From assembly GCF_036227485.1 (NCBI RefSeq), contig NZ_CP109479.1, forward strand, positions 10,106,001 through 10,170,000: a DNA stretch of 64,000 nucleotides, read 5' to 3'. Source of the stretch: Streptomyces sp. NBC_01451 (GTDB lineage Bacteria; Actinomycetota; Actinomycetes; Streptomycetales; Streptomycetaceae). Under the pieces are notes generated by a model that was given only the letters and a program-made list of their open reading frames with translations, was not told the DNA's origin and searched no databases. Both the position numbers and the translations under genes were made by a program. Of this stretch, positions 40,318 to 63,338 are shown one piece after another; positions within the stretch are counted from its first letter, which is position 1; each line of letters begins with the position of its first letter.

Positions 40318-40529
40318 CAGTAGACCCCCACCCAGGTGGGGAAGACATCGTCCTCGTCGTCGTGATCATGATCCAGAAGGAGAGACCCCCACGTGTGTGG
40401 GGAAGGCACCCGGATCATGTAGTCACCGCCTTGGTAGAGCGAGAGACCCCCAGGTGTGTGGGGAAGGCGGGCCGATCTTGGGAATGGAGGCCTGTGGATA
40501 GGAGAGACCCCCAGATGTGTGGGGAAGGC
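40318..40529 (-). CRISPR. Type I-E CRISPR array 1 (4 repeats, 3 spacers)
   Basis: Four 29-base repeats at an exact 61-base period give 32-base spacers. On the plus strand the repeat reads GGAGAGACCCCC...GTGGGGAAGGC. Read on the minus strand it has the I-E layout: GCCTT, stem CCCCAC/GTGGGG, then an 8-base GTCTCTCC handle. The leftmost repeat is degenerate, as expected for the leader-distal end, and the AT-rich leader is on the right, so transcription is leftward. Confidence 0.93.
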
Positions 40530-40561
40530 TCTTACTGGCCAGCGGGCTTGAAGATCGACAG

Positions 40562-40590
40562 ACTATTTTTTGCTTACTTTACACGGGCTG
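40562..40590 (-). promoter_or_regulatory. Leader of CRISPR array 1
   Basis: The AT-rich block TATTTTTTGCTTACTTTAC lies about 33 bases right of the last repeat. The same block with few changes lies about 34 bases right of array 2, which identifies it as the shared leader core and fixes the direction of both arrays. Confidence 0.7.
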
Positions 40591-40762
40591 GCTGTGCCGG
40601 TGAGGGGGTGTTGGCGTAGATACCGAGCAGTTGTTCGGCGTGCCGGGGGAGTGGTCTTGGCGGACCACAGGCTCTTGGCCCTATGTCACAACGAGGCGCT
40701 CTCCTTGCTTATAGAGGGGAGCGCGGCGTGACGGACGCCGCCGTGGAAACCGGGGGTGGGGT

Positions 40763-41909: not shown

Positions 41910-42926
41910 ATGGTGACGTTGCTGCAAGACCGTCAGACGATCGATGGCCGGGACACGGTGCCGGAGATGCTGCGGGTGGCGGGGCGGGAACTGCGGCCGA
42001 CGCCGGTGTTCGACACCTATTGGCGGTTCGCCGCCGCCCGGCAGGCGGTCTATGAGGCGCGCCTGGAGGGCCGGGCGCGGCCGTGGACCCACGATCCGAT
42101 CCTGGCCGGGCACCGGTTCACCAACTGCTACCGGGCTGCCGACCGCGTCAGCCAGGTCCTGATCACGGACGTGATCTACCAGGGGTCGCAGGACTGGGAG
42201 GACGTGTTCTTCCGCACCCTGCTGTTCAAGGTCTTCAACAAGGAGTCCACCTGGCGGCTGCTCAACCGCGAACTGGGCGAGGTGCGCTGGGGCAGCTATG
42301 CCTTCGACGCGTACGACCGGGTGCTCTCAGCGGTCTTCGCGCGGGGGGAGCGGCTGTACTCGGCCGCCTACATCGTTCCGCCGCCGCAGCTGGGGGAGAG
42401 CCGCAAGCACCGCAATCATCTGCGGCTGCTGGAGAGGATGATGACGACCGGCGCCCCGGAGCGCGTTGCGGGGGCATCGACGATGCGGGAGGCCTACGAG
42501 GTACTGCTCGGCTACCCGGCACTCGGCCCGTTCCTCGCCTACCAGTTCACCATCGACCTCAACTACGCTCCGCAGCTGACGTTTTCGGAGATGGACTTCG
42601 TGGTTCCCGGGCCGGGAGCGCGTGACGGCATCCGTAAATGCTTCGGTCCGGCAGCCGATGGCATCGAGGCCGAGGTCATCCGCTACATGGCTGCTTCCCA
42701 GGACGAGCATTTCGCCCGTCTGGGGCTGTCCTTCACCGGGCTGGGGGGGCGGCCGCTGCAGCTGATCGACTGCCAGAACCTGTTCTGCGAGGTCGACAAG
42801 TACGCGCGTGTTGCCCACCCGGACATCGCCGGTATCAGCGGCCGCAGCCGTATCAAGCAGGTCTACCGCCAGGACGCTGCTCCGGTACGGGCCTGGTTCC
42901 CGCCCAAGTGGGGCCTGAACGCCTAG
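41910..42926 (+). CDS. Alpha-glutamyl/putrescinyl thymine pyrophosphorylase-like (HMUDK_hel) protein
   Basis: 338 residues, all helical. 'PVFDTYWRFAAARQAVYEAR', 'HRFTNCYRAADRVSQVLI', 'VFFRTLLFKVFNKESTWRLL' and 'FLAYQFTIDLNYAPQLTFSE' match the helical domain linked to 5-hydroxymethyl-dU DNA kinases and to thymine pyrophosphorylases that build hypermodified thymines in phage DNA. In bacteria such genes occur in prophages and mobile islands. Next to it are a thymidylate-synthase-like gene and a MazG-type gene, which fits a role on modified pyrimidine nucleotides or DNA. Substrate unknown; it could also be a defence component. Start uncertain (41910 or 41967). Confidence 0.8.
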   Translation: MVTLLQDRQTIDGRDTVPEMLRVAGRELRPTPVFDTYWRFAAARQAVYEARLEGRARPWTHDPILAGHRFTNCYRAADRVSQVLITDVIYQGSQDWEDVFFRTLLFKVFNKESTWRLLNRELGEVRWGSYAFDAYDRVLSAVFARGERLYSAAYIVPPPQLGESRKHRNHLRLLERMMTTGAPERVAGASTMREAYEVLLGYPALGPFLAYQFTIDLNYAPQLTFSEMDFVVPGPGARDGIRKCFGPAADGIEAEVIRYMAASQDEHFARLGLSFTGLGGRPLQLIDCQNLFCEVDKYARVAHPDIAGISGRSRIKQVYRQDAAPVRAWFPPKWGLNA

Positions 42927-45551: not shown

Positions 45552-46442
45552 ATGGGAGTGCGTGTGCATCTCGCCCGCTATCAGCAAGCAGCCCTCAAAA
45601 CCCTGCAACCCCCCACCGACGGCACCGACCCCGTCCTGATACCCCTGCTCGGCCTCGTCGGCGAAACAGGCTCAGTGATCACCGCCTACAAAAAACGCCT
45701 GCGCGACGGAGCCGACGCAGGACCCTCAAAACAGCAACTACGCGAGGAACTCGGCGACGTCCTCTGGTACACAGCCACCCTCGCCCACCTGCTCGGCCTC
45801 GACCTCGAGGACATCGCCGCCGCAAGCCTGGAGAAAACCAAAGACCGCTGGCGCACCACCCCAAACGACCAACGCCCCCACTTCGACGCCGACTACCCCG
45901 CCCACGAACAGCTGCCCCGGCGCACCACCGTCACCTTCACCCCCACTCCCCAGCCCGACGGTCGCACCGTCATCACCCTCGCCCGCGAAGACGGAACCCC
46001 CGCCGGCGATCCACTGACCAGCGCCAGCCACATTGAGGACGACTACCGCTTCCATGACGCCTTCCACCTCGCCCACGCAGCCGTCCTGGGCTGGTCACCC
46101 GTCAGCCGCTTCCTGCTCGACCGCAAGCGCCGCAGCCGCCCCGGCATCGACGAAGCCGAAGACGGCGGCCGCGCCATCGCCATCGAAGAAGGCATCAGCG
46201 CCTTGGTTTTCTCCTACGCCAGCCGCCACCACTACTTCGAAAACCTCCGCCACGTCGACCACGAACTACTGATCACCATCGACCACATGACTGCCCACCT
46301 CGAAGTCAGTGTCCTGCGCGCCGCCGACTGGGAAAAAGCCATCATGACCGGCTACGCAGCCTGGCGGCAGCTGCGCAAACACGGCGGCGGCCACCTCGAA
46401 CTCGACCTCGACGCACAGGCCCTGACGTTTACCGAACCCTGA
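45552..46442 (+). CDS. MazG-like NTP pyrophosphohydrolase with C-terminal extension
   Basis: 296 residues. The first ~100 form a MazG-type helical domain ('LLGLVGETGSVITAYKKRLR', 'LREELGDVLWYTATLAHLLG', 'KTKDRW') that would hydrolyse a (d)NTP to (d)NMP and PPi. A Pro/Thr linker follows, then about 150 residues with conserved His/Glu-rich helices ('FHDAFHLAHAAVLGW', 'IEEGISALVFSYASRHHYF') that could be a second metal site. Phage-type hypermodification systems often pair such enzymes with TS homologues to clear the normal nucleotide. Confidence 0.8.
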   Translation: MGVRVHLARYQQAALKTLQPPTDGTDPVLIPLLGLVGETGSVITAYKKRLRDGADAGPSKQQLREELGDVLWYTATLAHLLGLDLEDIAAASLEKTKDRWRTTPNDQRPHFDADYPAHEQLPRRTTVTFTPTPQPDGRTVITLAREDGTPAGDPLTSASHIEDDYRFHDAFHLAHAAVLGWSPVSRFLLDRKRRSRPGIDEAEDGGRAIAIEEGISALVFSYASRHHYFENLRHVDHELLITIDHMTAHLEVSVLRAADWEKAIMTGYAAWRQLRKHGGGHLELDLDAQALTFTEP

Positions 46443-46541: not shown

Positions 46542-47951
46542 CCGGCAGCCCCCACGGGGCCGGGGAGCGTTTCCAGACTGAACCCATCGTCACCCAATTC
46601 GCGGACAGACCCCCACGTGCGCGGGGAAGGCGACGGTGACGTCGAACGCGGTGGGCTGGATCGGGTGGGCCCAGTTCACCGAAAGACCCCCACGCGTGTG
46701 GGGAAGGCAGGGTGAAGAGCTCCGTACGGGCCTCGGTCGCGGAGAGACCTCCACGTGTGTGGGGCCTTGGATTCACCAGGACCATATCCATCAGCCAGAC
46801 CGACCCCCACGCGTGTGGGGAAGGCTCAGTGAGCTGGCCTGTGCGCAGAGCGCGGTAGGACAGACCCCCACGCGTGTGGGGAAGGCCTCGCCATGGTCGG
46901 CGTGTGCGCGTTCGTGCCGGACGGACCCCCACGCGTGTGGGGAAGACGAGAGTGCGTCGTCGTCCAGGTCGACGACCTCGGACGGACCCCCACGTATGTG
47001 GGGAAGATTCCGCCCTCTGGGCGGTCCGTACGGGAGGAGAAGCCTGCCGCCACTGCAAAGACTCTCACCACCGAAGGCTGACCCCCACGCATGTGGGGAG
47101 CCAAGGTGGGCTGGACCGGGTGTGCGCAATTCACCGACGAACCCCCACGTACGTGGGGAAGACGGCAACTACTTCCTCGGCAGCCGCGAGGAGCTGGGCA
47201 GACCCCCACCCGCATGGGGAGGACATGCTGGCATCGCGCATCTTCATCTGGCAGAAGGACTGACCCCCACGTGTGTGGGGAAGACGGTAGTGGCGAATGC
47301 GCGGTGGCTGGCCGGGACTTACCCCCACGTGAGGTGGGGCCATCGTTGGCGTGCCGTCACCGACCGCGGTATCCGCGAAACACCCCCACATCTATGGGGA
47401 GGGAGCTACCGGGTACTGCCCGATGAACGCCGCGTGCGGAAGACCCCCACATCTTTGGGGAGGGTGCCGTCGAACTGTACCGGCGCACCGGCGGCTACGA
47501 CGGACCCCCACGCATGTGGGGAAGGCTTCCTCCAACCTAGAGAAAAACCGGAAGACATGGACAGACCCCCACGGATATGGGGAAATGTGCTTCAGTACGG
47601 TCCTGCTGCACCAGGGAACGACTGACTCTCATGTCCGCGGGGAGGAATGCCCTTGGGCGGTCAAGTGCGCCCAGCCCCGGAACGGCAGACCCCCACATGC
47701 GTGGGGAGCGCAGGAAGCCGGTGGAGCGGCCCTGTTGGGTGAAGGACGGACCCCCATGTGTATGGGGGTGTGTCGAGCGTACCTTCGGCACTATCAACTC
47801 CCTGGACCCCCACCGCACGTGGGGAATGCATCCAGTCTTGGCGGTAGAGCTTCCGGTTGTAGGGCAAACCCCCACGCAGGTGGGGAGGATTCTGCCAGTG
47901 CGGCAAGGTCGACCGATACCTCGGACAGACCCCCACGCGTGCGGGGAGGAC
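46542..47951 (-). CRISPR. Type I-E CRISPR array 2 (about 22 repeats plus one decayed)
   Basis: 29-base repeats, consensus on the plus strand GGACAGACCCCC...GTGGGGAAGGC, mostly at 61-base period (32-base spacers). Repeat starts can be placed at 46603, 46680, 46741, 46797, 46858, 46919, 46980, 47075, 47135, 47196, 47257, 47315, 47376, 47437, 47498, 47559, 47619, 47683, 47744, 47800, 47862 and 47923. A decayed unit sits exactly 61 bases left of the first (46542). Several intervals are irregular (56, 58, 64, 77, 95) and many repeats carry substitutions in stem and loop. Leader is on the right; transcription is leftward, away from cas3. Confidence 0.95.
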
Positions 47952-47984
47952 CCTTGCTGGCCTGCTGGTTCTCTGACCCGAGGG

Positions 47985-48010
47985 GCAGTTTTTATTCACT
48001 TTACCGGGTC
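47985..48010 (-). promoter_or_regulatory. Leader of CRISPR array 2
   Basis: CAGTTTTTATTCACTTTACC matches the leader block of array 1 and sits at the same distance from the last repeat. The 325 bases between here and cas3 must carry promoters in both directions. Confidence 0.7.
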
Positions 48011-48335
48011 CGGTGTGGTGGTCGTGCCGGGATGCGGCTTCCACGGCGGCACCGAACTGCCGGGCTGGCAGTTGAGCACGGCCCACGCGGAATGGGGGAG
48101 ACCATTTTCAACTGTCCCCACTTCACAAGACGCTGCGGTACCGGGCCGGTTGGGCAATATGGCGAGCTTGTGGCGTCCGGCCGGGCCGGGATATCTGCCG
48201 GTGTGTTCCGCAGTCGTCCGTGGTATCTGTCCGACGGACGGTGGGCCCATGGGCGTACGCCTTCCTACGCGGGAGAGCAGCACCGCCTCCCGCTTTGGCA
48301 GTTCCGGGAGGCGGCCTGCGGAAATTGGTGATCGG

Positions 48336-51275
48336 ATGCGGCAGGATGGTGTCAACACCCCTTTACGGTGGGGTAGTTGGGTGTGGGGAGTGGTTGTGGG
48401 AGTCCGGGAGGATGCCCGGTTCGACGGGATCGACTTGACGCCGTGGGGGAAGTTCGACCGGGGGGTTCTGGCGGTGTATCCGCTGCTGTTCCATCTGCTG
48501 GATGTGGCGGCGGTCGCCGGTGAGGTGTGGGACCGGTTCCTGACGCGTGGTCAGCGGCGGCTGATCGCCGACGGGCTGAGCGTGACGGTGGCGGAGGCCC
48601 GGTGCCTGGTGATGTTTTTCGCCGGTTTGCATGATCTGGGAAAGTTGACATCTTTCCAGGAGCGGGAGGCGCATCCCTGGGCACGAGTGAGTGAGGTGCT
48701 GCGGGCGGACACTCAAGGCTGGCGGAGCATGCCGCACGAGCGGGCCTCCATGCACAGTGTGCTGCAGCTGCTGGCGGAGGCCGGCTACGAGGCGGACACA
48801 TCGGACAGTGCGGGGGTGCTGGTGACGCAGATGCTGGGCGGGCACCACGGCCGGTTCCTGCAGCTCGACATTGACGGTGCGGCCAGAGCGTCCCGGGTCA
48901 ACCTCGTTCTGGGAGGCCCCGCGTGGCAGGATCTGCGCCGCCGCTACTTCGCCCTGGTGCGTCATCTGACCGGCGCCACCATGGTGCCCTCGCGGGTGTC
49001 GGTGCCGGCCGCGGTACTGATCACCGGGGTCGGAGTGATCGCGGACCGGCTGGCCAGCCAGCGCCACTACTGGCTGCTGAAGGCGCAAGCACCCGCCTTC
49101 AGCGCCGGCGAGCACTACGCGCAGGCCGTCAAGGACGCCCCGGCCCTGCTCGACGGGTCCGGTCTGGCCCGCGTCACACTCCCTCCGGCGCCCTTCGCCC
49201 AGGCCCACCGCGGTCTGACCGCGCCGAACGACCTGCAGGCCTCCCTGATCAGGCAGCTCACCAAGGTGGTGGGGGAGAAGGGGCCGGGCATCGTGGTGGT
49301 CACCGATGCCACCGGCGGCGGGAAGACCGTGACCGGCCTGGAAGCCGCACGCATCTTCAACGCCGACGGCGCCACCGCCGGCATCGTGTGGCTGCTGCCC
49401 ACCACCGCCACCGCGGACGCCTCCTACGAGATCCTTGAGCGGTACGTGGCCGCGCACCGCCCCGAGCGGGCTCCGGTCTCCCTGGTGTACAGCCACAGCT
49501 GGAACAACTCCGCCTACTCCGACCGCCAGATCGCCGCTGACGAGGCCTCCACCACCGACGAATTCTGGCCCGAGGAGCCCGACGGCCGGGGAGGCCCGGA
49601 CGGGGCACAGCGCCCTGAGGAGCGGGTGACCGTACCGGACGGCTGGCTGCGGGGCTGGGACCGGGCACTGCTGGCGCAGTTCACCGTCGCCACCCACGAC
49701 CAGGCCCTCATGGCGGCGCTCCCGGTCCGTTTCAGCGCGCTGCGCATGCTGGCCCTGTCCGGGCGGACCGTCATCGTCGACGAGGCCCACGCCCTGACCC
49801 CGTTCATGCAGCAGCTACTGGGGCGGCTGCTGCACTGGCTGGGCGCACTGGGCTGCCCAGTCGTCCTGCTCTCCGCCACGATGCCGGCCCGCGTCAGCAC
49901 CGACCTGGTGCGCAGCTACCTCGCCGGCGCAGGCCACCGGCCCAGCAGCACCGCCGGTCTGGACTGCGCACCCGCCTACCCGGGCTGGCTGTTCGCCGCG
50001 GCCGCCGACGCCTCCCTGACCCGTATGGACCCGCACGCGGGCGAGGCCCACGCCCAACGGCACCGCCGGACCGCTTCCCTGCGCCTGTACCCGGTGCGCC
50101 ATTCGTCGTACACCGACCCCGACGACGCCCCGGCGCGGGAGAGCCGGCTGGAGCGCATCAGCGCCGAGATCGCCCCCGTTGTCCAGGGCGGGGGATGCGC
50201 GGCGGTGGCGTGCGCGACCATGGCCGACGCCCAGGCCGCCTACCAGCACCTCCACGACACCCTGCCCTGGCCCGGCGGGCCGGAGGGCCAACTGCTGCTG
50301 TTGCACGCACGCCTGCCCGGCCATCAGCGCGAGGCCCTCACCCGCCTGATCCGCGACCGGCTCGGCTCCGCCGGCGAGCGCCCCGCCCGCCTGGTCATCG
50401 TCACCACCAGCCTCCTCGACATGAGTCTCGACATCGACGTCGACGTCCTTGTCAGTGACCTCGCCTCCCTCGAGAAGCTGCTGCAACGCCTGGGCCGGCT
50501 GTGGCGGTTCGAGAACTTGTGGGGGGCGGGCGCGGACCGCAGGCCCGCCTGGCTGCGCCGGCAAGGGGTGCCTCGCCTCAGCATCCTGCAGCCCACCGAC
50601 CACCGGGGCCGCACCCTGATCCCGGCCGCCTGGCGCACCCTGGAACCGGCCCTCTTCACGCACGCCGCTGCAGGCCGCCTCTCCGGCCTGCCTCAGCGCA
50701 CCCTCACTCTCACGCTGCCCGACGACGTCCAGCACCTGGTCGAAACCGTTCACGCCGGCGCCGCCGAACTCGCCCGCACCAGCCCCGACCTCACACAGCA
50801 TCACACCGCCTACCAGAGCAGGCGCCGCGGCGAGGAACACCTCAGCGCCCTCCACCTCGTCCCCACCTGGCGGGACACGCTCTCGCTCGCCGACCTGCAC
50901 CGCCAACGCCTGCATGCCCGCGAGGCCGCCACCCGGCTGGGCGCCATGCCGCGGCGCCTCCTGCCCCTCTACCGCACCCCCGAAGGCCGCCTCGCCCTCG
51001 ATCCGGCCGGCACCCGGTTGCTGTCCCTGGACCGCGAGCCCACCACCGCGATGATCCGCACCATTCTTCAGCACACCCTGCCTGTCCCCGCCGCCTGGGT
51101 CGCCGAGCGCCGCCGCGAACACCACGCCCCCGCCCTGTGGAAGAAGCACGCCCTGCTCGCCGACCTCGTCCTGCTGCCGCACGACGCCACGGACCCCGGC
51201 GCGGGCGTGCGCTTCGGCCGCAACACCCTGCGCCTCGACCCCGTGCTGGGACTGGTGGCCGAGCACGGCGAATGA
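48336..51275 (+). CDS. cas3: CRISPR-associated helicase-nuclease Cas3 (type I-E)
   Basis: 979 residues from ATG 48336; GTG codons at 48381 and 48396 are alternatives. HD nuclease: 'GLHDLGKLTSF', a His in 'PHERASMHS' and the HH pair in 'LGGHHGRF'. SF2 helicase: Walker A 'TDATGGGKT', Walker B 'VIVDEAHAL', motif III 'LLSATMP', motif V 'SLLDMSLDIDVDVLVSDLA' and motif VI 'LLQRLGRLWR'. All key motifs look intact, so target degradation should be possible. This matters because known CRISPR-guided transposons lack a working Cas3. Divergent from array 2; separated from cas8e by 450 bases. Confidence 0.95.
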   Translation: MRQDGVNTPLRWGSWVWGVVVGVREDARFDGIDLTPWGKFDRGVLAVYPLLFHLLDVAAVAGEVWDRFLTRGQRRLIADGLSVTVAEARCLVMFFAGLHDLGKLTSFQEREAHPWARVSEVLRADTQGWRSMPHERASMHSVLQLLAEAGYEADTSDSAGVLVTQMLGGHHGRFLQLDIDGAARASRVNLVLGGPAWQDLRRRYFALVRHLTGATMVPSRVSVPAAVLITGVGVIADRLASQRHYWLLKAQAPAFSAGEHYAQAVKDAPALLDGSGLARVTLPPAPFAQAHRGLTAPNDLQASLIRQLTKVVGEKGPGIVVVTDATGGGKTVTGLEAARIFNADGATAGIVWLLPTTATADASYEILERYVAAHRPERAPVSLVYSHSWNNSAYSDRQIAADEASTTDEFWPEEPDGRGGPDGAQRPEERVTVPDGWLRGWDRALLAQFTVATHDQALMAALPVRFSALRMLALSGRTVIVDEAHALTPFMQQLLGRLLHWLGALGCPVVLLSATMPARVSTDLVRSYLAGAGHRPSSTAGLDCAPAYPGWLFAAAADASLTRMDPHAGEAHAQRHRRTASLRLYPVRHSSYTDPDDAPARESRLERISAEIAPVVQGGGCAAVACATMADAQAAYQHLHDTLPWPGGPEGQLLLLHARLPGHQREALTRLIRDRLGSAGERPARLVIVTTSLLDMSLDIDVDVLVSDLASLEKLLQRLGRLWRFENLWGAGADRRPAWLRRQGVPRLSILQPTDHRGRTLIPAAWRTLEPALFTHAAAGRLSGLPQRTLTLTLPDDVQHLVETVHAGAAELARTSPDLTQHHTAYQSRRRGEEHLSALHLVPTWRDTLSLADLHRQRLHAREAATRLGAMPRRLLPLYRTPEGRLALDPAGTRLLSLDREPTTAMIRTILQHTLPVPAAWVAERRREHHAPALWKKHALLADLVLLPHDATDPGAGVRFGRNTLRLDPVLGLVAEHGE

Positions 51276-51725
51276 CCCCCAGCCCTTTACCGCGACATCG
51301 GCGGACCATTTACTGGCCGGTGCACGACAAATCCTGCCGCCATCGAAAGCAGTCGATTCGGAAAGCCGAAAAAAGAGTAACTGGCCGGTAATTGAATAAG
51401 GGTCAGAGTGGTTCGAGGAGATCCGCTTCTGTGACTACTATGAGAAACACGAAGACGGACATACGTTCGACCGCTTCTTCGTGACCCCCTCCTGTGCTTC
51501 TGCGACGTTGAGCACTGCACCCCCTGGTGCCCGGCGCGAAGCAACTCCGACCCTGTGGGCATGGCTTGACCTGGCCGCATGCCTCCTGAGCCGGGCTCGT
51601 AACTTTTGCCTGCCGCTGCCCCGGCACAGCGCCGCGTCCTGGCGTGCCGTCAGCAGGAGGCCCGCTCACGCTCCTTCCCTCTTTCTCTTCCCCTTTCCTC
51701 CCTGTCTGGCATTTGGAGCTTCCCT
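51276..51725. other. cas3-cas8e intergenic region
   Basis: 450 bases with no gene, unusually long for a cas operon. ACTGGCCGGT occurs twice in direct orientation (51313-51322 and 51380-51389), and the stretch 51300-51440 is AT-richer than its surroundings. It is a likely site for a second promoter driving cas8e to tnsC. Confidence 0.55.
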
Positions 51726-53279
51726 ATGCCCGAACCTCTCTACGCAACCGACAAAGAACCCTGCATTCCGGTCCTCTTCCTCGACGGGCACCAGGAATTC
51801 CTTGGCTGGCGCGACGTACTGCTGCGCGCCCACGAGATCGAGGACCTGGCCCTTCCCCTGCCACCGGCGGCGTCCGCCGTGCTGCGCGTCCTCATCGCCA
51901 TCACCGCCCGGGTCACCGGGCTGGACGATCCGGAGATGGGCGCGGGGGAGTGGGCGGCCCGCCGCCGCAGGCTGCTGAAGGAACCCGACGGCTTCGACGC
52001 CGACACGGTCCACCGCTATTTCGCCGCCTACGTCTGGGATCTGTTCGACCCCGTGCGCCCCTTCCTGCAGGACCCGCGGCTGGCCGTCCAATGCAAGAAG
52101 CGCGCCGGGGTCAACAAACTGGTCTTCGGCCGCCCGGAGGGCAACAACCTGGCCTGGCTGAGTCCGCACGCCGACACCGACCCCCAGCCGGTGCCCAGCG
52201 AGCAGGCCCTGTGGCACATGCTCATCCACCACTACTACGGCGCCGTCGGCCAGTGCTCCGTCCGCACCGTCGACGGCCAGGACCAAGGCAGTGCCAAAGC
52301 CGGGCCGCTGCGCACCACGCTCTCCTTCCACCCTTTGGGCCGCACCCTGTACGAAACCCTCCTCGCCGGCCTGCCCAAACCGGACGAGGACTGGCCCGGC
52401 GCCCAGGACCACTGCCCGTGGGAAGAGCCCGACCTGCCCGACCCGCTGGCTGCACCCCCGCCGGTGACCTGGCCCGGACGGCTGCTGACCGGCCGCTCCC
52501 GCCACGCCATCCTCCTCATCCCCTCCGCGGACGGCCGACAGGTCACCGACGCCTACCTGACCTGGGCCACCCAGACCAAACTCCTCGCCACCGACCCCTT
52601 CCTCGTCCATCACGACAACCCGGGTCAACCTGTCACCCGGCGGCACCAGCCCCGCAGCGCGGACGCCGACCGGGCCCTGTGGCGCGACCTGGACGCCCTA
52701 CTGCTCGCCGGCGACGAAGACTCAGCCGTCCAGCGCCCCGAAGCCTTCACCACCCTCAACGACCTTCCGGCCGATCTGCGCGCCCAACTCCGCGTCCGCG
52801 TACACGGCTTCGACCAGGACGGCTGGACCACCAATCGCACCTGGTACACGGCCCTGACCCCGCCGATCTGGCCCTGGATGCAGGAGCACGATGCCGCCGC
52901 GGCCGAGCGGGTCGCCGAATGCCGCAAGGAAGCCGAGGCCATCGGCGTCCTGCTGGACAAGGTCTCCAGAGACGCCTGGCGGACCGTCACCACACCCCCC
53001 GGGGCGTCCCCCCGCGGCTCCCGTCCGCCCAAGAGGCTTCCCCCCTGGACGAAGCGGGTCCGTGCCGCGTACTGGCCACGCGCCGAGACCGTCTTCTGGA
53101 ACCTTATTGAGACCCCGGAACGCGATGCGCGGGCGGCGTTCGCCGCCGAAGCCGCCGCCGCCCTGCGGGAAGCCGCCCGCCCCGCGATCTCCCAGCACTT
53201 CCGCGCCGCACCAGCCATCGCCACAGCAGTGGCCACACTGCGCCGCCGGCCAGCCGCCGCCCGGCGCCGCGCCACCTGA
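51726..53279 (+). CDS. casA: Cascade large subunit Cas8e (CasA/Cse1)
   Basis: 517 residues from ATG 51726. N-terminal 'PCIPVLFLDGHQEFLGWRDV', 'RPFLQDPRLAV' and the 'KLVFGRPEGNNLAWLS' segment near the PAM-sensing loop are typical of Cse1 in actinobacteria, as is 'LIHHYYGAVGQCSV'. A C-terminal four-helix bundle follows. It recognises the PAM and in I-E recruits Cas3. Length is normal. Confidence 0.92.
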   Translation: MPEPLYATDKEPCIPVLFLDGHQEFLGWRDVLLRAHEIEDLALPLPPAASAVLRVLIAITARVTGLDDPEMGAGEWAARRRRLLKEPDGFDADTVHRYFAAYVWDLFDPVRPFLQDPRLAVQCKKRAGVNKLVFGRPEGNNLAWLSPHADTDPQPVPSEQALWHMLIHHYYGAVGQCSVRTVDGQDQGSAKAGPLRTTLSFHPLGRTLYETLLAGLPKPDEDWPGAQDHCPWEEPDLPDPLAAPPPVTWPGRLLTGRSRHAILLIPSADGRQVTDAYLTWATQTKLLATDPFLVHHDNPGQPVTRRHQPRSADADRALWRDLDALLLAGDEDSAVQRPEAFTTLNDLPADLRAQLRVRVHGFDQDGWTTNRTWYTALTPPIWPWMQEHDAAAAERVAECRKEAEAIGVLLDKVSRDAWRTVTTPPGASPRGSRPPKRLPPWTKRVRAAYWPRAETVFWNLIETPERDARAAFAAEAAAALREAARPAISQHFRAAPAIATAVATLRRRPAAARRRAT

Positions 53280-53320
53280 CACCTTCCGCCAGGCCGCCGC
53301 CCGCCGCGCCCTGCCCCCTG

Positions 53321-54055
53321 ATGCCGGAGACCCCGTTGCCGCCCACCCTCACCACCGCGCAACGCCGCGAGCACTACGACGACTTCGTCGCCGCGGTCCT
53401 CGACCTGTGCGCCACCAACAGCATCCGCTCCGACCTCGCCTCCGGACGAGGACGCCCCCTGGAGGAATGCGGGGCACGCATGCAGCAGTACCTCGTGGCC
53501 CGCGTCTCCCGCTACGGAGCCCGCCGCGCCCACTACACCGTCGCCAGCCTGATCGCCATGCAGCGCCACCTGGTCCACGAAGACGGCCTCTACACCCCGG
53601 AGTTCGCCGTCCCCGCCCCCGACGACAGCACGACCGAGGCCGCTCGCCTGCCGGCTGCGGAAAGCGACAGTCCGCTGGACGAACCAGCCCACACACCTGT
53701 CCCGGGCAGCAGCCCTGCAGGCGGCCCGGTGGCAGGGGAGAGGACAGCGGTGCGGCACTGGCGGGCCCGCCCGGATCTCGGCTCCAGCCTCGCCATCGCC
53801 GTGGCCCGGCACGGCTTCAAACAACACCGCATGGACGACCAGGTCAAGATCCTCACCAGACTGTCCTCCCCGCTGCTGCACCCCCTGCTGTGGAGACTCA
53901 CCTCCCGCCTGGCCAACCGCGACGCAGCCCGCCTCGACTTCGCCGTCCTGCTGGAAGACCTCGCCCGGTGGGACTACGACCAGCTGCACATCGCCGACCG
54001 CTGGCGCGAGTCCTACTTCCAAACCCTTGACCGTCTCGTGTCCCAGGAGGACTGA
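53321..54055 (+). CDS. casB: Cascade small subunit Cse2 (CasB)
   Basis: 244 residues from ATG 53321. Helical Cse2 fold with 'RREHYDDFVAAVLDLC', 'YTVASLIAMQRHLVHEDG', 'SSLAIAVARHGFKQHRMDDQ' and 'LTRLSSPLLHPLLWRLTS'; a Pro/Ser linker of ~40 residues in the middle. It stabilises crRNA and target DNA in Cascade. The stop lies one base before the cas7e ATG. Confidence 0.9.
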   Translation: MPETPLPPTLTTAQRREHYDDFVAAVLDLCATNSIRSDLASGRGRPLEECGARMQQYLVARVSRYGARRAHYTVASLIAMQRHLVHEDGLYTPEFAVPAPDDSTTEAARLPAAESDSPLDEPAHTPVPGSSPAGGPVAGERTAVRHWRARPDLGSSLAIAVARHGFKQHRMDDQVKILTRLSSPLLHPLLWRLTSRLANRDAARLDFAVLLEDLARWDYDQLHIADRWRESYFQTLDRLVSQED

Positions 54056-54056
54056 C

Positions 54057-55274
54057 ATGGCCGCCTACGCGCCCGCCCGCTACATCGACCTGCACGCCCT
54101 GCAACCCGTGCCCGCCTCCCTCCTCAACCGTGGGGAGGACAACGAACCCAAGACCCTGGTGTTCGGCGGCGCGATGCGCGCCATGGTCTCCTCCCAGTCC
54201 TGGAAGCGAGCCATCCGCCTCCCGATGGAGGCGGAACTCGACGAACACGCCGCCCGCACCCGCAACCTGCCCCTGCGCGTGGCCGACGCACTGCGCGAGG
54301 CCGGCTGGCCCCAGGACCTGGCCGCCTTCGCCGGAGCCCAGATCGTCCGCTCGGCCACCAAAGAAGGCCTCAAGACCGAAGAACAACAGGGCGGCATCAC
54401 CTCGGCCCTCCTCTACCTGCCGCGCGATGTCCGCTCCGACATGGTGCAGCTGTGCCACGAGCACCGCCCGCAGCTGGAAGAGACCCTCGCACAACAACAG
54501 GCCGCTGCCGCCGCCGCAGCAGCCGCTCCCAAGCCCAACGGCAGACGCAAGGCCAAGGACAGCGCAGTGCCCGCCGTCCTGCCCACCCGCACGGTCGCCG
54601 CACTGATCCGGCGGCGCACCGCCACCATCAACCTGTTCGGCCGCATGCTCGCCGAACTCCCCGACGCCCACGTCGACGGCGCCGTACAGATGGCCCACGC
54701 CTTCACAGTGCACCAAAGCGACCCGCAGCCCGACTACTTCACCGCCGTCGAGGACTGGTCCGCCCCCGGTGAAGCGGGCAGCGCACACCTGCAGACCAGC
54801 TTCTTCACCACCGGCATCCTCTACCGCTACGCCACCGTCAACCTCACCGAACTCATCCGCAACCTGGGCGGCGACCACGACCAGGCGCTGCGGCTGCTGG
54901 CCCTGTTCACCGAGATGTTCATCGAGAGCATTCCCCAGGCGAAAAAAACGTCCACCGCCCCCCACACCCTGCCGCACCTGGTCCACTACGCCGTCCGTGA
55001 GCGCCGCCCGGTCTCCTACGCCGCCGCCTTCGAACAGCCCGTCAAACCAGCCCCCGGCGGCGGCTACACCCTCCCCGCCGTCCAGGCACTGTCCACCCAC
55101 GCCGACGCCCTGGGCCGACTACTGGGCAGCCGGCGCCGCATCGCCCACGGCTACGCCACTTACCAGAACACCCCGGTCGACCACCTCGGCACCCCCCACG
55201 CCTCCTTCGAGGAACTCACCGACGCGCTGACCGAGGCCGCCGCCCAGCCCGCCGCCTCCCTGGCCGTCGCGTGA
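54057..55274 (+). CDS. casC: Cascade backbone Cas7e (CasC/Cse4)
   Basis: 405 residues. The signature 'YIDLHALQPVPASLLNRGED' then 'EPKTLVFGGAMRAMVSSQSW' with 'KRAIR' is the standard Cas7e opening. RRM-type core and a Gln/Ala-rich insertion ('ETLAQQQAAAAAAAAAPKP') follow. Six copies usually line the crRNA. Its last codons overlap the GTG of cas5e. Confidence 0.95.
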   Translation: MAAYAPARYIDLHALQPVPASLLNRGEDNEPKTLVFGGAMRAMVSSQSWKRAIRLPMEAELDEHAARTRNLPLRVADALREAGWPQDLAAFAGAQIVRSATKEGLKTEEQQGGITSALLYLPRDVRSDMVQLCHEHRPQLEETLAQQQAAAAAAAAAPKPNGRRKAKDSAVPAVLPTRTVAALIRRRTATINLFGRMLAELPDAHVDGAVQMAHAFTVHQSDPQPDYFTAVEDWSAPGEAGSAHLQTSFFTTGILYRYATVNLTELIRNLGGDHDQALRLLALFTEMFIESIPQAKKTSTAPHTLPHLVHYAVRERRPVSYAAAFEQPVKPAPGGGYTLPAVQALSTHADALGRLLGSRRRIAHGYATYQNTPVDHLGTPHASFEELTDALTEAAAQPAASLAVA

Positions 55275-56059
55275 ACGGCATCCTGCTGCGCCTGGCCGCT
55301 CCGCTGATGTCGTTCGGGGAACACGCAGCCTTCCGCTACCGCGACACAGTCGGTTTCCCCACCCGTTCCGCGCTCATCGGCATGTTCGCCGCCGCCGATG
55401 GACGCTCCCGAGAAGAAGCCCTCGCCCCCGATCCGGGCACCGGCGCCATTCCGTACACCGACCTGGTCTTCACCGTCCGCATCGACCGGCCCGGCCACCG
55501 GCACACCGACTACCACACCGCCGGCGGCGGCCGCCCCCACAAAGAAGGCCTGCACACCAGCAGTGGAGAGCACCGCGCCCAGAAGGCATCCACCTTCATC
55601 AGCCATCGCGTCTACCTGGCCGACGCCGTCTTCACCGTCGCCGTCCGCGGCCCCGACCGGCTCCTGGAAGAGATCACCGAACGGCTCGAACAGCCTGCCT
55701 TCGCCCTCTACCTGGGCCGCCGCGCCTGCATCCTCGACGAGCCCCTCCTCCTGCGCACACCGCACCCTGATCCCGTAGCAGAACTCCTGCACCGGGTGCC
55801 GCTCAGCCTCGCAGCCGGCCCCCCGCCCCGGCAGGACACCGTGCCGGTCGACTTCGTGTGGGAGGCGCCGCCCGCCCACGTGCCCGCCGCCGACGTCCAC
55901 CGGGAACTCGCCGATGTCCCAGTCGATTTCACCCCCACCCGGCGCTTCCACCACACCCGCCGCGTATGGCGCACCACCGAACAGCTCCCCGCCACCCTGG
56001 CCGCTTCCCATCCCCCGATCGAAGCACTGACCGCCTACATCCAGCAGGACACCCCATGA
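55271..56059 (+). CDS. casD: Cascade Cas5e (CasD)
   Basis: 262 residues from GTG 55271 (GTGA overlap with cas7e). 'ILLRLAAPLMSFGEHAAFRY', 'VGFPTRSALIGMFAAADGRS' and 'ASTFISHRVYLADAVFTVAV' match Cas5e. It binds the 5' handle of the crRNA. ATGA overlap with cas6e. Confidence 0.93.
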   Translation: MNGILLRLAAPLMSFGEHAAFRYRDTVGFPTRSALIGMFAAADGRSREEALAPDPGTGAIPYTDLVFTVRIDRPGHRHTDYHTAGGGRPHKEGLHTSSGEHRAQKASTFISHRVYLADAVFTVAVRGPDRLLEEITERLEQPAFALYLGRRACILDEPLLLRTPHPDPVAELLHRVPLSLAAGPPPRQDTVPVDFVWEAPPAHVPAADVHRELADVPVDFTPTRRFHHTRRVWRTTEQLPATLAASHPPIEALTAYIQQDTP

Positions 56060-56760
56060 CCCCGCCCCTGGCGACCACACCCGCCACCGTGACGCTGACC
56101 CGCATCCGTCTCAACCGCAACAGCCGCGACGTACGCCGCGACCTGGCCCGCTCCACCAGCCTCCACAAGACCGTCATGCTGCTGGCCCCCGAAGGCCTGG
56201 GCGACAGCCCCCGCCACAAGGCCGGACTCCTCTTCCGTCTGGAACAGGCCACCCACCACACCCCGCCCACTCTGCTCATCCAGTCCCAGCTGTCGCCCGA
56301 CTTCAGCCGCCTGCCCCACGCCTACGGCACCACCGAAACCCGCGACCTCACCCCCATGTTCCAAGCCCTGGCCACCGGCACAAGCGTGCGCTACCGCATC
56401 ACCGCCAACGCCAGCACCCGCCACAAAGTCCTCGACGGCGACCCCTTCTTCGACACCCGACCCCGCCACAAGGACATCCCCCTGTACGGCGACGACGCCC
56501 TCGCCTGGTGGCAGCGCAAAGCCGCTCACGCAGGCCTGGCCCCGACCAGCACCGACCTCACCCCCGTCGGCGCCTTCCGCAGCCCCTCCACGAAAAAACA
56601 GACCAGCGACAGTGCCCCGCACGTCTTCCGTCACGTCCTGACCCGCTTCGACGGCGTCGCCACCATCACCGACCCCAGCCAGTTGTGCCACGCCCTGCTC
56701 GCCGGCATCGGCCGCGGCAAACCGTACGGCGCCGGACTGCTCAGCCTCGCCCCCGCCTGA
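56056..56760 (+). CDS. casE: crRNA-processing endonuclease Cas6e (CasE)
   Basis: 234 residues from ATG 56056. The conserved His of the Cas6e active site is in 'DLARSTSLHKTVMLLAP', and the Gly-rich C-terminal loop is 'GIGRGKPYGAGLLSL'. It cuts the repeat hairpin and stays bound to the crRNA. In ordinary I-E operons cas1 and cas2 come next; here a transposase gene does. Confidence 0.93.
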   Translation: MTPPLATTPATVTLTRIRLNRNSRDVRRDLARSTSLHKTVMLLAPEGLGDSPRHKAGLLFRLEQATHHTPPTLLIQSQLSPDFSRLPHAYGTTETRDLTPMFQALATGTSVRYRITANASTRHKVLDGDPFFDTRPRHKDIPLYGDDALAWWQRKAAHAGLAPTSTDLTPVGAFRSPSTKKQTSDSAPHVFRHVLTRFDGVATITDPSQLCHALLAGIGRGKPYGAGLLSLAPA

Positions 56761-56801
56761 CCCACCAGCCCCCGACGTCCGCCGCCCTCAAGGAAACCCC
56801 C

Positions 56802-58388
56802 GTGCCCGCCACACCATCACCCGATGGCCCCTACGACACCACCACCCTGCGCGCCGCCGCCGTACGCCGCCTGCTGCGCCTGCGCGTCGCCGACCGCCTG
56901 ACCCACCACGACGTGCGTACCGTCGCCGCCGCCTTCACCGTCCACTGGCGCACCGTGCGTCGCTGGATCGACAACGCCGACTCCCACCACGGCACCTACA
57001 CCCCCCAAGGCCGCCCCCACTTCGCCCTCACCCCGGCCATGCACGAAGCCCTGGTCCAATGGCACGGCAACGTGGCGAGCGCCTACCTCGCACTCGTCGC
57101 TCACGGTCACCTCGGCACCCCGCCCCGGGCCTCCCAGGCCACCTTCTACCGCGCCGTCAACCGCGAACTCAGCGCCGGGCAACGCGCCGCCCTCAAGAAC
57201 GGCGAAGCAGCACGCCGCCGACACGACGTCCACGCCCTGCGCCCGCGCGGCAACCGCAACGACGTCTGGGAGACCGACCACGTCGAAGCCAGTGTCTTCG
57301 TCAACGTCGACGGACGCCGAACCAAACCCTGGATCACCTGGTTCATCGACCACGCCACCGCCGTCATCTGCGGCGTGGCCATCACCCCCCACCAGCCCAG
57401 CCAGGACGCCATCCTGGCCGCCGCCCGCGACGCCATCCTCCACACCGATCACCACCGGCCCTTCGGCGGCATCCCCCGCAAACTGAGAGTCGACCGCGGC
57501 CGTGACTTCCTGGGCAAATGCGTAACCGAGGCCTTCCAGAAGTTCGGCACCGAAATAATCGTCCTGCCGCCCTACAGCCCCCACCTCAAAGGCACCGTCG
57601 AAGCCGTCAACGGCGCCGCCAAGCACATGCTGTTCAAGGGCCTGCCCGGCTACGCACACACCCCCCGAAGCCGCCGCGACCGCCGCGGCCACCCCCTGTG
57701 GGCCCTGGACGAACTCCTCGACTACGAAACCTTCATCACCATCGTCCTGAACTGGGTGGACTGGTGGAACAACGACCACACCATCGCCCGCCTCCACCGG
57801 CGCACCCCCGCCCAGGCCTGGCACGCCGACCTGACCCCCATCGACACCCTCGACCCCGAAGACCTGCACACCTACACCCTCAAAGACGGCGGCCCACCCC
57901 GGAAGATCACCAGCAAAGGCGTCCGCTGGAACAGCGCCTACTACGTCGGCGACTGGATGCACGGCCACGGCAGCGCAGGCGAGATGGTCCGCCTGCGCCA
58001 CGAACCACACCACTACCACCGCATCGAGCTCTACGACGCCGACACCCTCACCTACCGCGGCGCCGCCTTCCGCAGCGACGAGATGAGCCCCCGACAATCC
58101 CGCGCCCTGCGCAACGCCCGCCGCCGCGAAGCCGACCGCTACGCCGCCAAAGCCCGCCGGGCCCGCAAGAACGCCAAACCCCGCTACGCCGCCACCAGTG
58201 TCGCCGCCACGCCCGAGCCCCTCAACCGGCTCACCGCCAGCCAAGCAACCGCCCAGCTACGCCAGCTACAGACACCAGAAGCAGACCTCCACGCCGAGTC
58301 CCGACCCGACCTCCTCAACCGGCCCAAGCCCGACTCCACCCGCTGGACCAAGCCCCTGCCCGCCCCCGAGCCCCAGGACGCTCCATGA
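56802..58388 (+). CDS. TnsB/TniA/MuA-type DDE transposase in the cas operon
   Basis: 528 residues from GTG 56802 (AAGGAA six bases upstream), 41 bases after cas6e. N-terminal HTH ('DVRTVAAAFTVHWRTVRRWI'), a second helical DNA-binding region, then an RNase-H-fold core with D159 ('WETDHVEA'), D231 ('LRVDRGRDFLG') and E267 ('KGTVEAVNGAAK'), spacing D-71-D-35-E. A Mu-transposase C-terminal beta-barrel follows ('KGVRWNSAYYVGDWMHGHG', 'RIELYDADTLTYRGAAF'), then a basic tail likely to contact the ATPase. All catalytic residues are present. Family is certain; whether it is TnsB-like, TniA-like or closer to IstA needs a tree. No terminal repeats fit in the 41-base gap, so it is not a separate insertion starting here. 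Confidence 0.92.
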   Translation: MPATPSPDGPYDTTTLRAAAVRRLLRLRVADRLTHHDVRTVAAAFTVHWRTVRRWIDNADSHHGTYTPQGRPHFALTPAMHEALVQWHGNVASAYLALVAHGHLGTPPRASQATFYRAVNRELSAGQRAALKNGEAARRRHDVHALRPRGNRNDVWETDHVEASVFVNVDGRRTKPWITWFIDHATAVICGVAITPHQPSQDAILAAARDAILHTDHHRPFGGIPRKLRVDRGRDFLGKCVTEAFQKFGTEIIVLPPYSPHLKGTVEAVNGAAKHMLFKGLPGYAHTPRSRRDRRGHPLWALDELLDYETFITIVLNWVDWWNNDHTIARLHRRTPAQAWHADLTPIDTLDPEDLHTYTLKDGGPPRKITSKGVRWNSAYYVGDWMHGHGSAGEMVRLRHEPHHYHRIELYDADTLTYRGAAFRSDEMSPRQSRALRNARRREADRYAAKARRARKNAKPRYAATSVAATPEPLNRLTASQATAQLRQLQTPEADLHAESRPDLLNRPKPDSTRWTKPLPAPEPQDAP

Positions 58389-59245
58389 CCACCACGCCCG
58401 ACAGCCAGCCGACCACCGGCTCCGGCTACCACTACATGGGCCTGCCCGGCGCCCGCGCCATGCTGACCAACGCCAGCGCAGAGACCTACGCCAACCTCGT
58501 CACCACCCTCAACGCCGACGCCGGCAAGGGCGCCATCATGTGCGTCCACGGCGGCGTCGGCCTGGGCAAGACCTTCGCCGTCAACAGCCACCTCGACGAC
58601 CTCGCCCCCCACACCACGCTGCGCATCAAAGTCGGCTCCGCCAAAATCCAGGCCCTGCGCGCCGCCCTGTACAAAAAGCTCGGCCTGCCCGGCGAAGCCC
58701 CCCTCAACAGCACCCGCTGCGAAGCCATCCTCAAGGAAACCCTGTCCGAGACCCCCCGCGTCCTGGTCGTCGACGAAGCCCAGTGGCTCGACACCCGGGC
58801 CTTCGAATTCATCCGCGAGCTCTGGGACGACGAGGACACCCGCCTCGCCGTCGTCCTGGTCGGAGCCGAAACCTGCTACCAGAAGATCAAGAACCGTCCG
58901 GCGCTGGACTCCCGCATCCTCATCTGGCAACGCTACAAGCCCCTCACACCCACCGAAGTCCTCACCGTCATCCCCGAGTACCACCCGCTGTGGGCGGACG
59001 TACCCGCAGACGAACTGCTCTGGATCGACGACGTGGCCTGCCACGGCAACTTCCGCCAGTGGGCCAAAATCAGCTACCTGCTCTGGGACGAATACGGCAG
59101 CACCCACGCGAAGGGGCCCGGTTCCGCAGATCCGCCGCACCCGCCCACTCCACACGGCACGGCCACACCCCTTCCTCCCTACAGCCGGGACTTCGTGCGG
59201 GCCATCCTCAGCCGCCTCGACCCCACCCAACGCCATACCGACTGA
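58385..59245 (+). CDS. TnsC/TniB/MuB-type AAA+ ATPase in the cas operon
   Basis: 286 residues; ATG 58385 overlaps the transposase stop (ATGA). Walker A 'CVHGGVGLGKTFAVNSHL' (K62), Walker B 'RVLVVDEAQWLDTR' (D130, E131), sensor-1-like 'AVVLVGAETCYQ' and an Arg-containing helix ('RPALDSRILIWQRYKPLT'). These ATPases pick the target DNA and activate the transposase. In Tn7-like CRISPR-guided elements TnsC links the transposase to Cascade through TniQ; no TniQ is seen. The C-terminal 40 residues are Pro-rich. Last gene of the operon. Confidence 0.9.
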   Translation: MTTTPDSQPTTGSGYHYMGLPGARAMLTNASAETYANLVTTLNADAGKGAIMCVHGGVGLGKTFAVNSHLDDLAPHTTLRIKVGSAKIQALRAALYKKLGLPGEAPLNSTRCEAILKETLSETPRVLVVDEAQWLDTRAFEFIRELWDDEDTRLAVVLVGAETCYQKIKNRPALDSRILIWQRYKPLTPTEVLTVIPEYHPLWADVPADELLWIDDVACHGNFRQWAKISYLLWDEYGSTHAKGPGSADPPHPPTPHGTATPLPPYSRDFVRAILSRLDPTQRHTD

Positions 59246-62054: not shown

Positions 62055-63338
62055 ATGAATCAGGCTGACGTGCTGAGGAAGCTAGGGGAGAGGGCCTCCG
62101 ACCAGTGGGGGCTGGTGACTGCTGCCCAGGCGAAGCTGGACGGTGTCCAGGGGGTGCATCTGCTGCGGCTGGAGCGCGCGGGCCTGCTGGAGAGCGTCGG
62201 GCGCGGGGTCTACCGGATTGCGGCCGGGGCTCCGCCGGAGCATCTGGAGACCAAGGTGGCCTGGCTGCGACTGGACCCCAAGACGCCGGCCTGGCAGCGC
62301 AGCAGTGCGCAGAAGTGGGCGGGCGTCGTTTCCCACGCGTCCGCCTGCGAGCTCCACGGACTGGGCGATCTTCCCGCCGACAGGGTGGAGCTGATTGTCC
62401 CGATACGGCGCACCACCCGGGACGACAGTGTGCTGCTGCACCGCCTGGCGCTGGAGGCCGACGACGTCACCGTGGTGGACGGACTGCCGGTCACCACGGC
62501 CGAGCGGACTATTGCCGATCTGCTGCGCTCGCGTGCAGACGGCGCGCACATCGGCACAGTGATCGCAGATGCCGACCGCAGAGGCCTGATCGACGTCGAC
62601 CACCTTGCCGACCGCGTGGTTCCCTTCGTCCGCGGCTACGGCCTTCCCGCCACTGCCTCGGGGGAGGAACTGCTGCAGGCCCTGTGCCAGCAGGCAGGCC
62701 GCAGCCTGCGCCGCCACGAAACCGAACAGGCCGTCGCAGCAGGCTTCGCCTCCGCCCTGAGCGCACTGGAAGAACTGGACGCCTCGGCCGCGCTGGAGAA
62801 GGTCCTGCAGAACATGCCTGTGGCCGATCGTCAGTCCCTGCTGCGGTCGATGGCTGCTCAGCCGACTGCGCTGGAGAAGGTTCTGCAGAGGCTCGGGTCG
62901 ACGCCCCTGGAGAAGATCCTGCAGGACTCGGCTGGCCGTCAGTCCGTACTGCAGGGGCAGAGCGCGGTGGAGAAGATCCTGCAGAGGCTCGGCTCGACGC
63001 CCCTGGAGAAGATTCTGCAAGACGTGGCCGATCGTCAGTCCCTGCTGCGGTCGATGGCTGCTCAGCCGACTGCGCTGGAGAAGGTTCTGCAGAGGCTCGG
63101 GTCGACGCCCCTGGAGAAGATCCTGCAGGACTCGGCTGGCCGTCAGTCCGTACTGCAGGGGCAGAGCGCGGTGGAGAAGATCCTGCAGAACTCGCCTGCC
63201 CTGCGTTTCCTGAAAGCTTCGAGCGGTCTGGGCCAGCCTCTGAAGGGCCTGGACGTATGGCGGCCTGTGCTGGAGCAGACAACGCCCCGGCCGCGGGCGC
63301 TTGAGAGGGCCAAGCACGATGAAGAAGAAGCTGACTGA
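62055..63338 (+). CDS. AbiEi-type antitoxin with internal repeat expansion
   Basis: 427 residues from ATG 62055. N-terminal wHTH ('WGLVTAAQAKLDGVQGVHLL', 'RGVYRIAAG') and the AbiEi_4 core ('WAGVVSHASACELHGLGDLP', 'LPVTTAERTIADLLRSRADG') define the antitoxin/autorepressor of the AbiE abortive-infection family. After about residue 250 it has an unusual tail with eight LEK[VI]LQ or VEKILQ motifs. The toxin gene follows 60 bases later. Confidence 0.82.
   Translation: MNQADVLRKLGERASDQWGLVTAAQAKLDGVQGVHLLRLERAGLLESVGRGVYRIAAGAPPEHLETKVAWLRLDPKTPAWQRSSAQKWAGVVSHASACELHGLGDLPADRVELIVPIRRTTRDDSVLLHRLALEADDVTVVDGLPVTTAERTIADLLRSRADGAHIGTVIADADRRGLIDVDHLADRVVPFVRGYGLPATASGEELLQALCQQAGRSLRRHETEQAVAAGFASALSALEELDASAALEKVLQNMPVADRQSLLRSMAAQPTALEKVLQRLGSTPLEKILQDSAGRQSVLQGQSAVEKILQRLGSTPLEKILQDVADRQSLLRSMAAQPTALEKVLQRLGSTPLEKILQDSAGRQSVLQGQSAVEKILQNSPALRFLKASSGLGQPLKGLDVWRPVLEQTTPRPRALERAKHDEEEAD
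62820..63189 (+). repeat. In-frame tandem duplication in the antitoxin gene
   Basis: 166 bases at 62820-62985 recur without a mismatch at 63024-63189, a 204-base (68-codon) period. Inside each copy are shorter related units ending in CTGGAGAAG(G/A)T(T/C)CTGCAG. The identity implies a very recent event or gene conversion. Confidence 0.9.

Follow-up and report, generated by a model that had tools for sequence, protein, structure and literature searches.

Streptomyces sp. NBC_01451 carries, within the window analyzed here (64,000 nucleotides; assembly GCF_036227485.1, contig NZ_CP109479.1, positions 10,106,001 to 10,170,000 of the forward strand), a type I-E operon of the clustered regularly interspaced short palindromic repeats (CRISPR)-Cas kind in which genes for a TnsB-like transposase and a TnsC-like ATPase follow cas6e in the place of cas1-cas2. 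Judged from sequence comparison, the locus may be an anti-plasmid interference system that acquires spacers slowly by means of TnsB-TnsC, anciently recruited in place of Cas1-Cas2; we give this reading about an even chance. It is drawn from the single clade formed by the TnsB proteins, their intact active-site motifs, and the failure to find Cas1e in 15 of 16 carrier genomes, together with leader-polar arrays, plasmid-matching spacers, an AA protospacer adjacent motif (PAM), and the cas1e-cas2e position of tnsB-tnsC.

Pfam profiles of the window proteins and the coordinates of the open reading frames (ORFs) gave the order cas3-cas8e-cse2-cas7e-cas5e-cas6e-tnsB-tnsC, all on the forward strand (Table 1), with the interference gene set complete. 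This agrees with an earlier description made from the letters alone (the sequence-only reading), whose statements on gene spacing, on intact catalytic residues and Walker motifs, and on TnsB- and TnsC-like genes in place of cas1-cas2 also held. The cas3 product matched Cas3_HD and Cas3_C, with DEAD barely above the cut-off, and the cse2 product scored 21.2 bits against PF09485, under the cut-off of 24.6. Gaps of 41 bases separate cas8e from cse2 and cas6e from tnsB, GTGA overlaps join cas7e to cas5e, and ATGA overlaps join cas5e to cas6e and tnsB to tnsC. The tnsB product has the DDE core, the Mu-transpos_C domain, and homology to a solved TnsB (PDB 7svw, E 5e-11, which we take to be of type V-K origin), and is thus assigned to the TnsB family; D159, D231, and E267 were matched by D, D, and E at the aligned positions of every one of the 48 TnsB rows. 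The TnsC-like protein contains Walker A (GGVGLGKT) and Walker B (VLVVDEA) motifs, and a single PDB entry matched its sequence, that of ATP-dependent target DNA activator B (8xvb, E 0.003).

The operon and its cas3-side array are repeated at the left end of the 10.27-Mb contig, within the inverted terminal repeat. The two copies differ by one base over 19,250 compared, and that base breaks the left-copy tnsB (C1:102266-103848), which is frameshifted by one C fewer in a C run at window position 57692. The frameshift may be real or an assembly error.

A search of genome contigs returned 11 close relatives of TnsB, all from Streptomyces, with 79-90% identity in the best segment. The loci compared are given L-numbers (L004 is S. 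stelliscabiei, L008 is S. ipomoeae 91-03, and L055 lies in genome G028). Directly upstream of tnsB, cas6e was found in 13 of the 17 other loci counted as CRISPR-linked, which indicates that the arrangement is not due to chance; homologues therefore recur beside I-E cas6e in other Streptomyces, the check that the sequence-only reading had proposed. As for the remaining four, the contigs of L007 and L013 begin at or inside tnsB, L008 is without cas6e, and L014 has a truncated tnsB and no cas6e. Besides the window, cas3 was present in L004, L005, L009, L010 (in two pieces), L011, L018, L019, L054, L055, and L073. Damaged loci were L006, with nothing of cas3 to cas7e, and L012 and L014, both with a broken tnsB. 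At L008:2929-4927, similarity to cas5e stops at 3459 and similarity to tnsB starts at its residue 38, at position 3461 in a different frame; cas6e and the start of tnsB are gone, by deletion or assembly error.

A free two-gene insertion element that landed behind cas6e by chance would draw on an ample stock, since TnsB relatives are common (35 of 101 Streptomyces genomes sampled, source genome counted in) and often lie near chromosome or plasmid ends. The neighborhoods of 35 of the 59 TnsB places outside the source genome, from 30 of the 34 other genomes, were fetched, and cas6e stood beside tnsB at 4 of the 35; a further 107 plasmid records had a TnsB relative, and among four neighborhoods inspected two held the full operon and two no cas genes. 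In the TnsB tree, however, which omits L012, L013, and L014 as too short, the 15 CRISPR-linked rows formed a single clade against 33 free rows with support of 100/100, and cas6e adjoins tnsB even where TnsB is merely 39-51% identical to that of the window. A chance landing is accordingly scarcely credible, and a recent insertion sequence behind cas6e was rejected by this tree. Because the CRISPR-linked TnsB proteins form one clade and identity to the closest free row, L057, is 46%, the pair does not, as far as sampled, look like the free two-gene insertion sequence with ends in cas6e or the 41-base gap against which the sequence-only reading had set its claim. The DDE triad was intact in 15 of 15 CRISPR-linked rows, and the Walker motifs in all 17 rows long enough (L012 was too short). 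Pairwise comparison of the ends of free TnsB relatives gave no clean boundaries, and the third gene of two free elements had no Pfam match. Cas-free relatives (L020, L067, L069, L070, and plasmid matches) often lay a few kb to tens of kb from linear ends.

The Cas1 profile PF01867 reached 26.6 bits over part of the model on the Cas1e of strain HM190 and was set aside; owing to this weakness on Streptomyces Cas1e, the HM190 protein was used as the query. Carriers were the 16 genomes with the system or its remnants, source genome included; in 3 of them the only tnsB is a broken one. The HM190 query found no Cas1e in 15 of the 16 carriers, among them the source genome, which was covered in full (by this query for Cas1e, with no separate search for Cas2). 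The sole Cas1e carrier was HM190, which has a second, canonical system with Cas1. Among the 101 sampled Streptomyces genomes, Cas1e occurred in 29, some by partial matches, and in none of the 5 carriers of that sample; the comparison of 1/16 carriers with 29/96 other genomes (Fisher test, p 0.065) gives no sign that Cas1e is commoner in carriers. In three annotated plasmid loci and the second locus of HM190, cas1e-cas2e hold the position that tnsB-tnsC hold here.

These counts bear on the principal alternative, in which Cas1e-Cas2e acting in trans, from visiting plasmids or past hosts, feed the arrays and TnsB-TnsC do something else. A supply in trans is available, as Cas1e relatives were found on 180 plasmid records, 90 of them from Streptomyces, and type IV-A arrays are reported to use a host I-E adaptation module (accessible text of PMC11656645). 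The leader motif, the 61-nt unit, and the repeat architecture are common to canonical arrays, and the divergence of the repeats suggests rare events. On the other hand, this alternative has the Cas1e counts against it and leaves the conserved TnsB-TnsC active sites unexplained. Furthermore, in HM190 the TnsBC subarray showed neighbor differences of 0, 1, 4, 6, 10, 12, and 10, no more uniform than those of the Cas1-less L090 (1, 1, 1, 1, 1, 2, and 4), which speaks against Cas1 in trans in this one genome; the canonical HM190 array has 57 nearly identical repeats. We therefore regard supply in trans as rather unlikely.

Both window arrays, on which the sequence-only reading had been silent in its entry, lie upstream of cas3 with a leader to the right of each, and their CRISPR RNAs (crRNAs) would be transcribed from the minus strand, presumably as in known I-E repeats. 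The direction of array growth was examined in 15 carrier subarrays that have a leader and 3 or more repeats (119 neighboring repeat pairs, none dropped); a plasmid array with the same repeat and leader (L024) was left out, having no cas genes in the 12 kb around it. The mean number of differences between neighboring repeats, out of 29 bases, was 2.5 at the first rank from the leader, 4.2 at the second, 5.4 at the third, and 7.7 both at ranks 4-5 and at rank 6 or beyond. The correlation (rho 0.43) was reached by 0 of 2000 within-array permutations. After removal of 27 pairs with at least 10 differences, which were probably mis-registered, the 92 pairs left rose from 2.5 to 5.9, and omission of HM190 changed little. 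Such leader-polar divergence is the mark of growth at the leader. The possibility of a merely decayed array was rejected, because repeat divergence rises away from the leader and the spacers match known plasmids.

All 161 adjacent carrier pairs differed by a mean of 6.9 of 29 bases, and the 120 pairs under 10 differences by 5.2. Analyzed by the identical method, six scans of four Cas1-bearing control loci (L121 and L123-L125) gave means of 0.10-0.54, and five scans of a nearer Cas1 lineage (L163, L165, L167, L169, and L170, with a masked stretch of L167 dropped and no array in L164) gave 0, 0.12, 0.14, 0.14, and 1.5. The Cas1-bearing arrays thus lay at 0-0.54 in 10 of 11 scans and at 1.5 in one (L169, uniform beside the leader and degenerate far away), and the carriers far higher. 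Units of exactly 61 nt made up 109 of 161 in carriers (range 50-68) and from 33/41 to 55/56 in the six control scans. The divergence between neighboring repeats suggests that spacer events are rare. The motif TGACCTGC, or a near form, stands beside the first repeat in both carrier and canonical leaders, so that descent of this leader from an ancestor with Cas1 is probable; in weak agreement with such an origin, the Cas6e tree separates the TnsBC rows by one branch (support 75/72), and the rows closest to them are three Cas1 rows. In a hand count of 14 clean units, spacers differed from protospacers at 16 of 448 positions and the two flanking repeats from each other at 60 of 406. These came from 18 units compared, 4 being dropped for missed or mis-registered repeats and 2 of the 20 fetched protospacers falling outside the set. 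Fresh spacers between unlike repeats are suggestive of unfaithful repeat copying; the units had been chosen by good protospacer matches, and this count is not relied on.

At least 26 distinct spacers, from six array stretches of five loci and a mini-array described below, matched plasmids at 92-100% in the best record (E 0.01, one search at E 0.1; one search gave 40 of 48 records). These searches did not extend to L091, L093, L095, and L023, nor to the degenerate 3' portion of the L090 array. In the window, a spacer of subarray 1 (40348-40379) matched plasmid genes at up to 97%, and at least 4 spacers of subarray 2 matched Streptomyces plasmid genes at 92-97%. No phage matches were obtained for the three array stretches searched. 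Annotated targets included helicase genes near plasmid ends, DNA-binding regulators, and a DnaB-like helicase gene; one target was a Mu-type transposase gene on a plasmid record that also carries TnsB relatives. With flanks fetched for 20 of the 26 spacers, an AA PAM was present in 19 of 20 protospacers, in the form of TT immediately following the 33rd base as read on the array strand, which corresponds to 5'-AAN in the crRNA orientation. A script read 16 of 18 (one of the two misses was mis-registered), and L107, L115, and L119 were read by eye; only L110, with GTAC, departed from this. The accessible text of PMC12231136 reports AAN as the PAM of the S. avermitilis I-E system. Spacers that match foreign DNA beside a defined PAM point to I-E immunity that is probably functional.

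A one-spacer mini-array with a conserved spacer was found 3' of tnsC at L005:12723, L008:6080, L011:12723, and L014:14216. Sites for this spacer with at most 3 mismatches were present in 7 of 12 other carrier genomes, and at that threshold none was found in 4 carrier genomes with the mini-array. TT stood at 6 of the 7 sites, and a reversed control pattern gave 1 chance match. The match in G028 is itself an array spacer (L055), related to the mini-array spacer and ending at the identical place, and L013 has a mini-array with a different spacer. A role as a homing guide was considered; the matches to plasmid helix-turn-helix genes would fit ordinary targeting equally well.

The sequence-only reading had hinted at a CRISPR-guided transposon, and TnsB and TnsC together with Cascade are what a CRISPR-associated transposon (CAST) of type I-E would show; a 2024 review lists I-E among the CAST subtypes, without details in its accessible text (PMC11656645). 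The hint was not supported. TniQ (PF06527) was not found in the source genome; PF06527 matches in 7 of 12 carrier genomes lay on other contigs or megabases from the locus, and none occurred in any of 14 control genomes. A search for exact inverted repeats of at least 10 bases, reaching 250 bases upstream of tnsB-tnsC and 400 bases beyond them downstream, found none at the window locus, a range that leaves distant or imperfect ends uncovered; over 8 loci, none was found in 5 (window included) and one or two unlike ones in 3. The Cas3 domains are present, so the effector nuclease is not lost, and the spacers are diverse plasmid pieces. With no TniQ nearby and no close ends, CAST identity was rejected and is in our judgement very improbable. 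The known Tn7-like CASTs (I-F, I-B, I-D, and V-K) share with the locus TnsB and TnsC-type proteins beside Cascade or another effector, but the window locus differs in all the respects just listed. According to the accessible text of Altae-Tran et al. 2023 (PMC10910872), CasMu-I and CasMu-V likewise combine a Mu/TnsB-type transposase and a MuB-type ATPase with CRISPR effectors, whereas they are of type I-A and type V, have no working effector nuclease, and have mapped ends.

Alternatively, TnsB-TnsC might act after target recognition, cutting or recombining the plasmid with Cascade or taking part in repair, with no role in memory. Operon coupling to Cascade would suit such a function, and TnsC-type ATPases link targets to transposases in CASTs. 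However, Cas3, the cutting enzyme of ordinary I-E systems, is represented here by its domains, no donor ends were found, and the gap in the adaptation module would be left unexplained; this function is improbable.

In the adaptation reading, crRNA, Cascade, and Cas3 would target Streptomyces plasmids, and products of Cascade or Cas3 would supply a PAM-defined piece of 33 nt. TnsB may then perform strand transfer of this piece at the leader-repeat border, with TnsC as the ATPase partner that positions TnsB. More specifically, TnsB-TnsC may have replaced Cas1-Cas2 once in Streptomyces, so that a transposase would have become a CRISPR spacer integrase for a second time, independently of the first; acquisition of plasmid spacers at the retained leader would now be slow, and its chemistry would leave fresh spacers flanked by repeats that differ. 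We propose this tentatively, at slightly less than an even chance. DDE transposases of the TnsB family duplicate about 5 bases. Since the duplicated repeat is 28-29 nt, a different geometry or another enzyme is needed, and the proposal does not account for this duplication.

Several observations weigh against adaptation by TnsB-TnsC. Neither integration of a spacer nor any other step of acquisition was directly observed. In unit length, PAM, repeat duplication, and leader motif, the carrier arrays resemble Cas1-bearing ones, so that Cas1-Cas2 in trans or in the past would leave identical marks, and the polarity is silent on which integrase acted. One carrier, HM190, has a canonical Cas1 system too, and several carriers are drafts in which plasmids may have been lost. 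Moreover, of 7 locus pairs compared, 5 had clearly lower synonymous divergence (dS) in tnsB-tnsC than in the cas genes, whereas L005-L009 was mixed and L004-L011 showed the opposite; between the window and L005 it was 0.17-0.23 in tnsB-tnsC and 0.46-0.63 in cas3 to cas5e, with only 15 codons of cas6e aligned. The two gene sets were thus not strictly co-inherited. In identity profiles, L005-L011 had a breakpoint in cas5e/cas6e, and the window compared with L005 had a step near the end of cas6e. Strains thus seem to exchange tnsB-tnsC or the whole 3' half of the locus. Finally, two successive window-array spacers recur in L004 (spacer 47104-47134 identical at 31/31 bases), whose Cas proteins are merely 55-72% identical to those of the window; spacer units common to different species indicate that arrays also change by recombination.

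Other features of the window were also recorded. Genes for a 5-hydroxymethyl-deoxyuridine (5-hmdU) DNA kinase-like protein (HMUDK_hel) and MazG_C lie beside the arrays at 41910-42926 and 45552-46442. Two sites, 37530-37557 and 38216-38238, match spacers of the HM190 and S. stelliscabiei TnsBC arrays and fall inside a minus-strand ORF (36877-38511) without a Pfam match. A 166-nt direct repeat occupies 62820-63189, within an ORF with AbiEi matches.

Table 1 Features of the TnsB-TnsC-linked type I-E locus in window coordinates (PWM, position weight matrix).
Feature	Position	Strand	Basis
CRISPR subarray 1 (4 repeats, 3 spacers, 61-nt units)	40318..40529	-	pattern and PWM scans
Leader of subarray 1 (TCTTACTGGCCAG...TTGAAGATCG...TTTGCTTACTTTACACG)	40530..40600		common to leaders of related arrays
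CRISPR subarray 2 (degenerate; 21 repeats detected, most units 61 nt)	46603..47951	-	pattern and PWM scans
Leader of subarray 2 (CCTTGCTGGCCTG...TTCACTTTACC)	47952..48020		leader comparison
cas3 (HD nuclease-helicase)	48336..51275	+	Pfam PF18019, PF22590, PF18395; start backed by alignment to L004
cas8e (cse1)	about 51726..53279	+	Pfam PF09481 (Cse1); start picked by alignment to relatives
cse2 (cas11e), divergent	53321..54055	+	weak Pfam PF09485; clear match in L018 orthologue
cas7e	about 54057..55274	+	Pfam PF09344 (CT1975)
cas5e	55271..56059	+	Pfam PF09704 (Cas5)
cas6e	about 56056..56760	+	Pfam PF08798
tnsB-like DDE transposase, 528 aa, D159/D231/E267	56802..58388	+	Pfam rve and Mu-transpos_C; GTG start
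tnsC/MuB-like AAA+ ATPase, 286 aa	58385..59245	+	Pfam AAA_22; Walker motifs

The sequence-only reading had not counted the arrangement among known CRISPR-guided transposons, though it allowed that large surveys might have reported it. The arrangement is already in print: the accessible texts of a 2025 review (PMC12231136) and a 2022 essay (PMC8730458) describe it in Streptomycetaceae and suggest that it may serve as an alternative adaptation module. The former names as its source Faure et al. 2019 (Nat Rev Microbiol 17:513), who proposed that TnsB-TnsC stand in for Cas1-Cas2, so that the adaptation hypothesis has been in print since 2019. As far as that variant is described there, the window locus is one more member of the TnsB-TnsC-linked I-E systems, with the same gene content and order, no cas1-cas2, an array with variable unit length, and no transposon ends detected; no essential difference was found. 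Added here to the reviews' account, in its accessible form, are the Cas1e survey, the leader polarity, the PAM, and the plasmid targets. Canonical Streptomyces I-E systems share the cas3 to cas6e order, array architecture, leader motif, and 61-nt units, but differ in having cas1e-cas2e in place of tnsB-tnsC and, in 10 of 11 scans, near-identical neighboring repeats. No experimental test of the adaptation idea was found in the literature searched, which was mostly without subscription papers.

The interest of the finding lies in opening a published hypothesis to test: the leader, the PAM, and plasmid targets are defined, and there are hosts whose genomes yielded no Cas1e. If TnsB-TnsC do integrate spacers, CRISPR memory would have been built twice, from the casposon enzyme behind Cas1 and from a Tn7-like TnsB.

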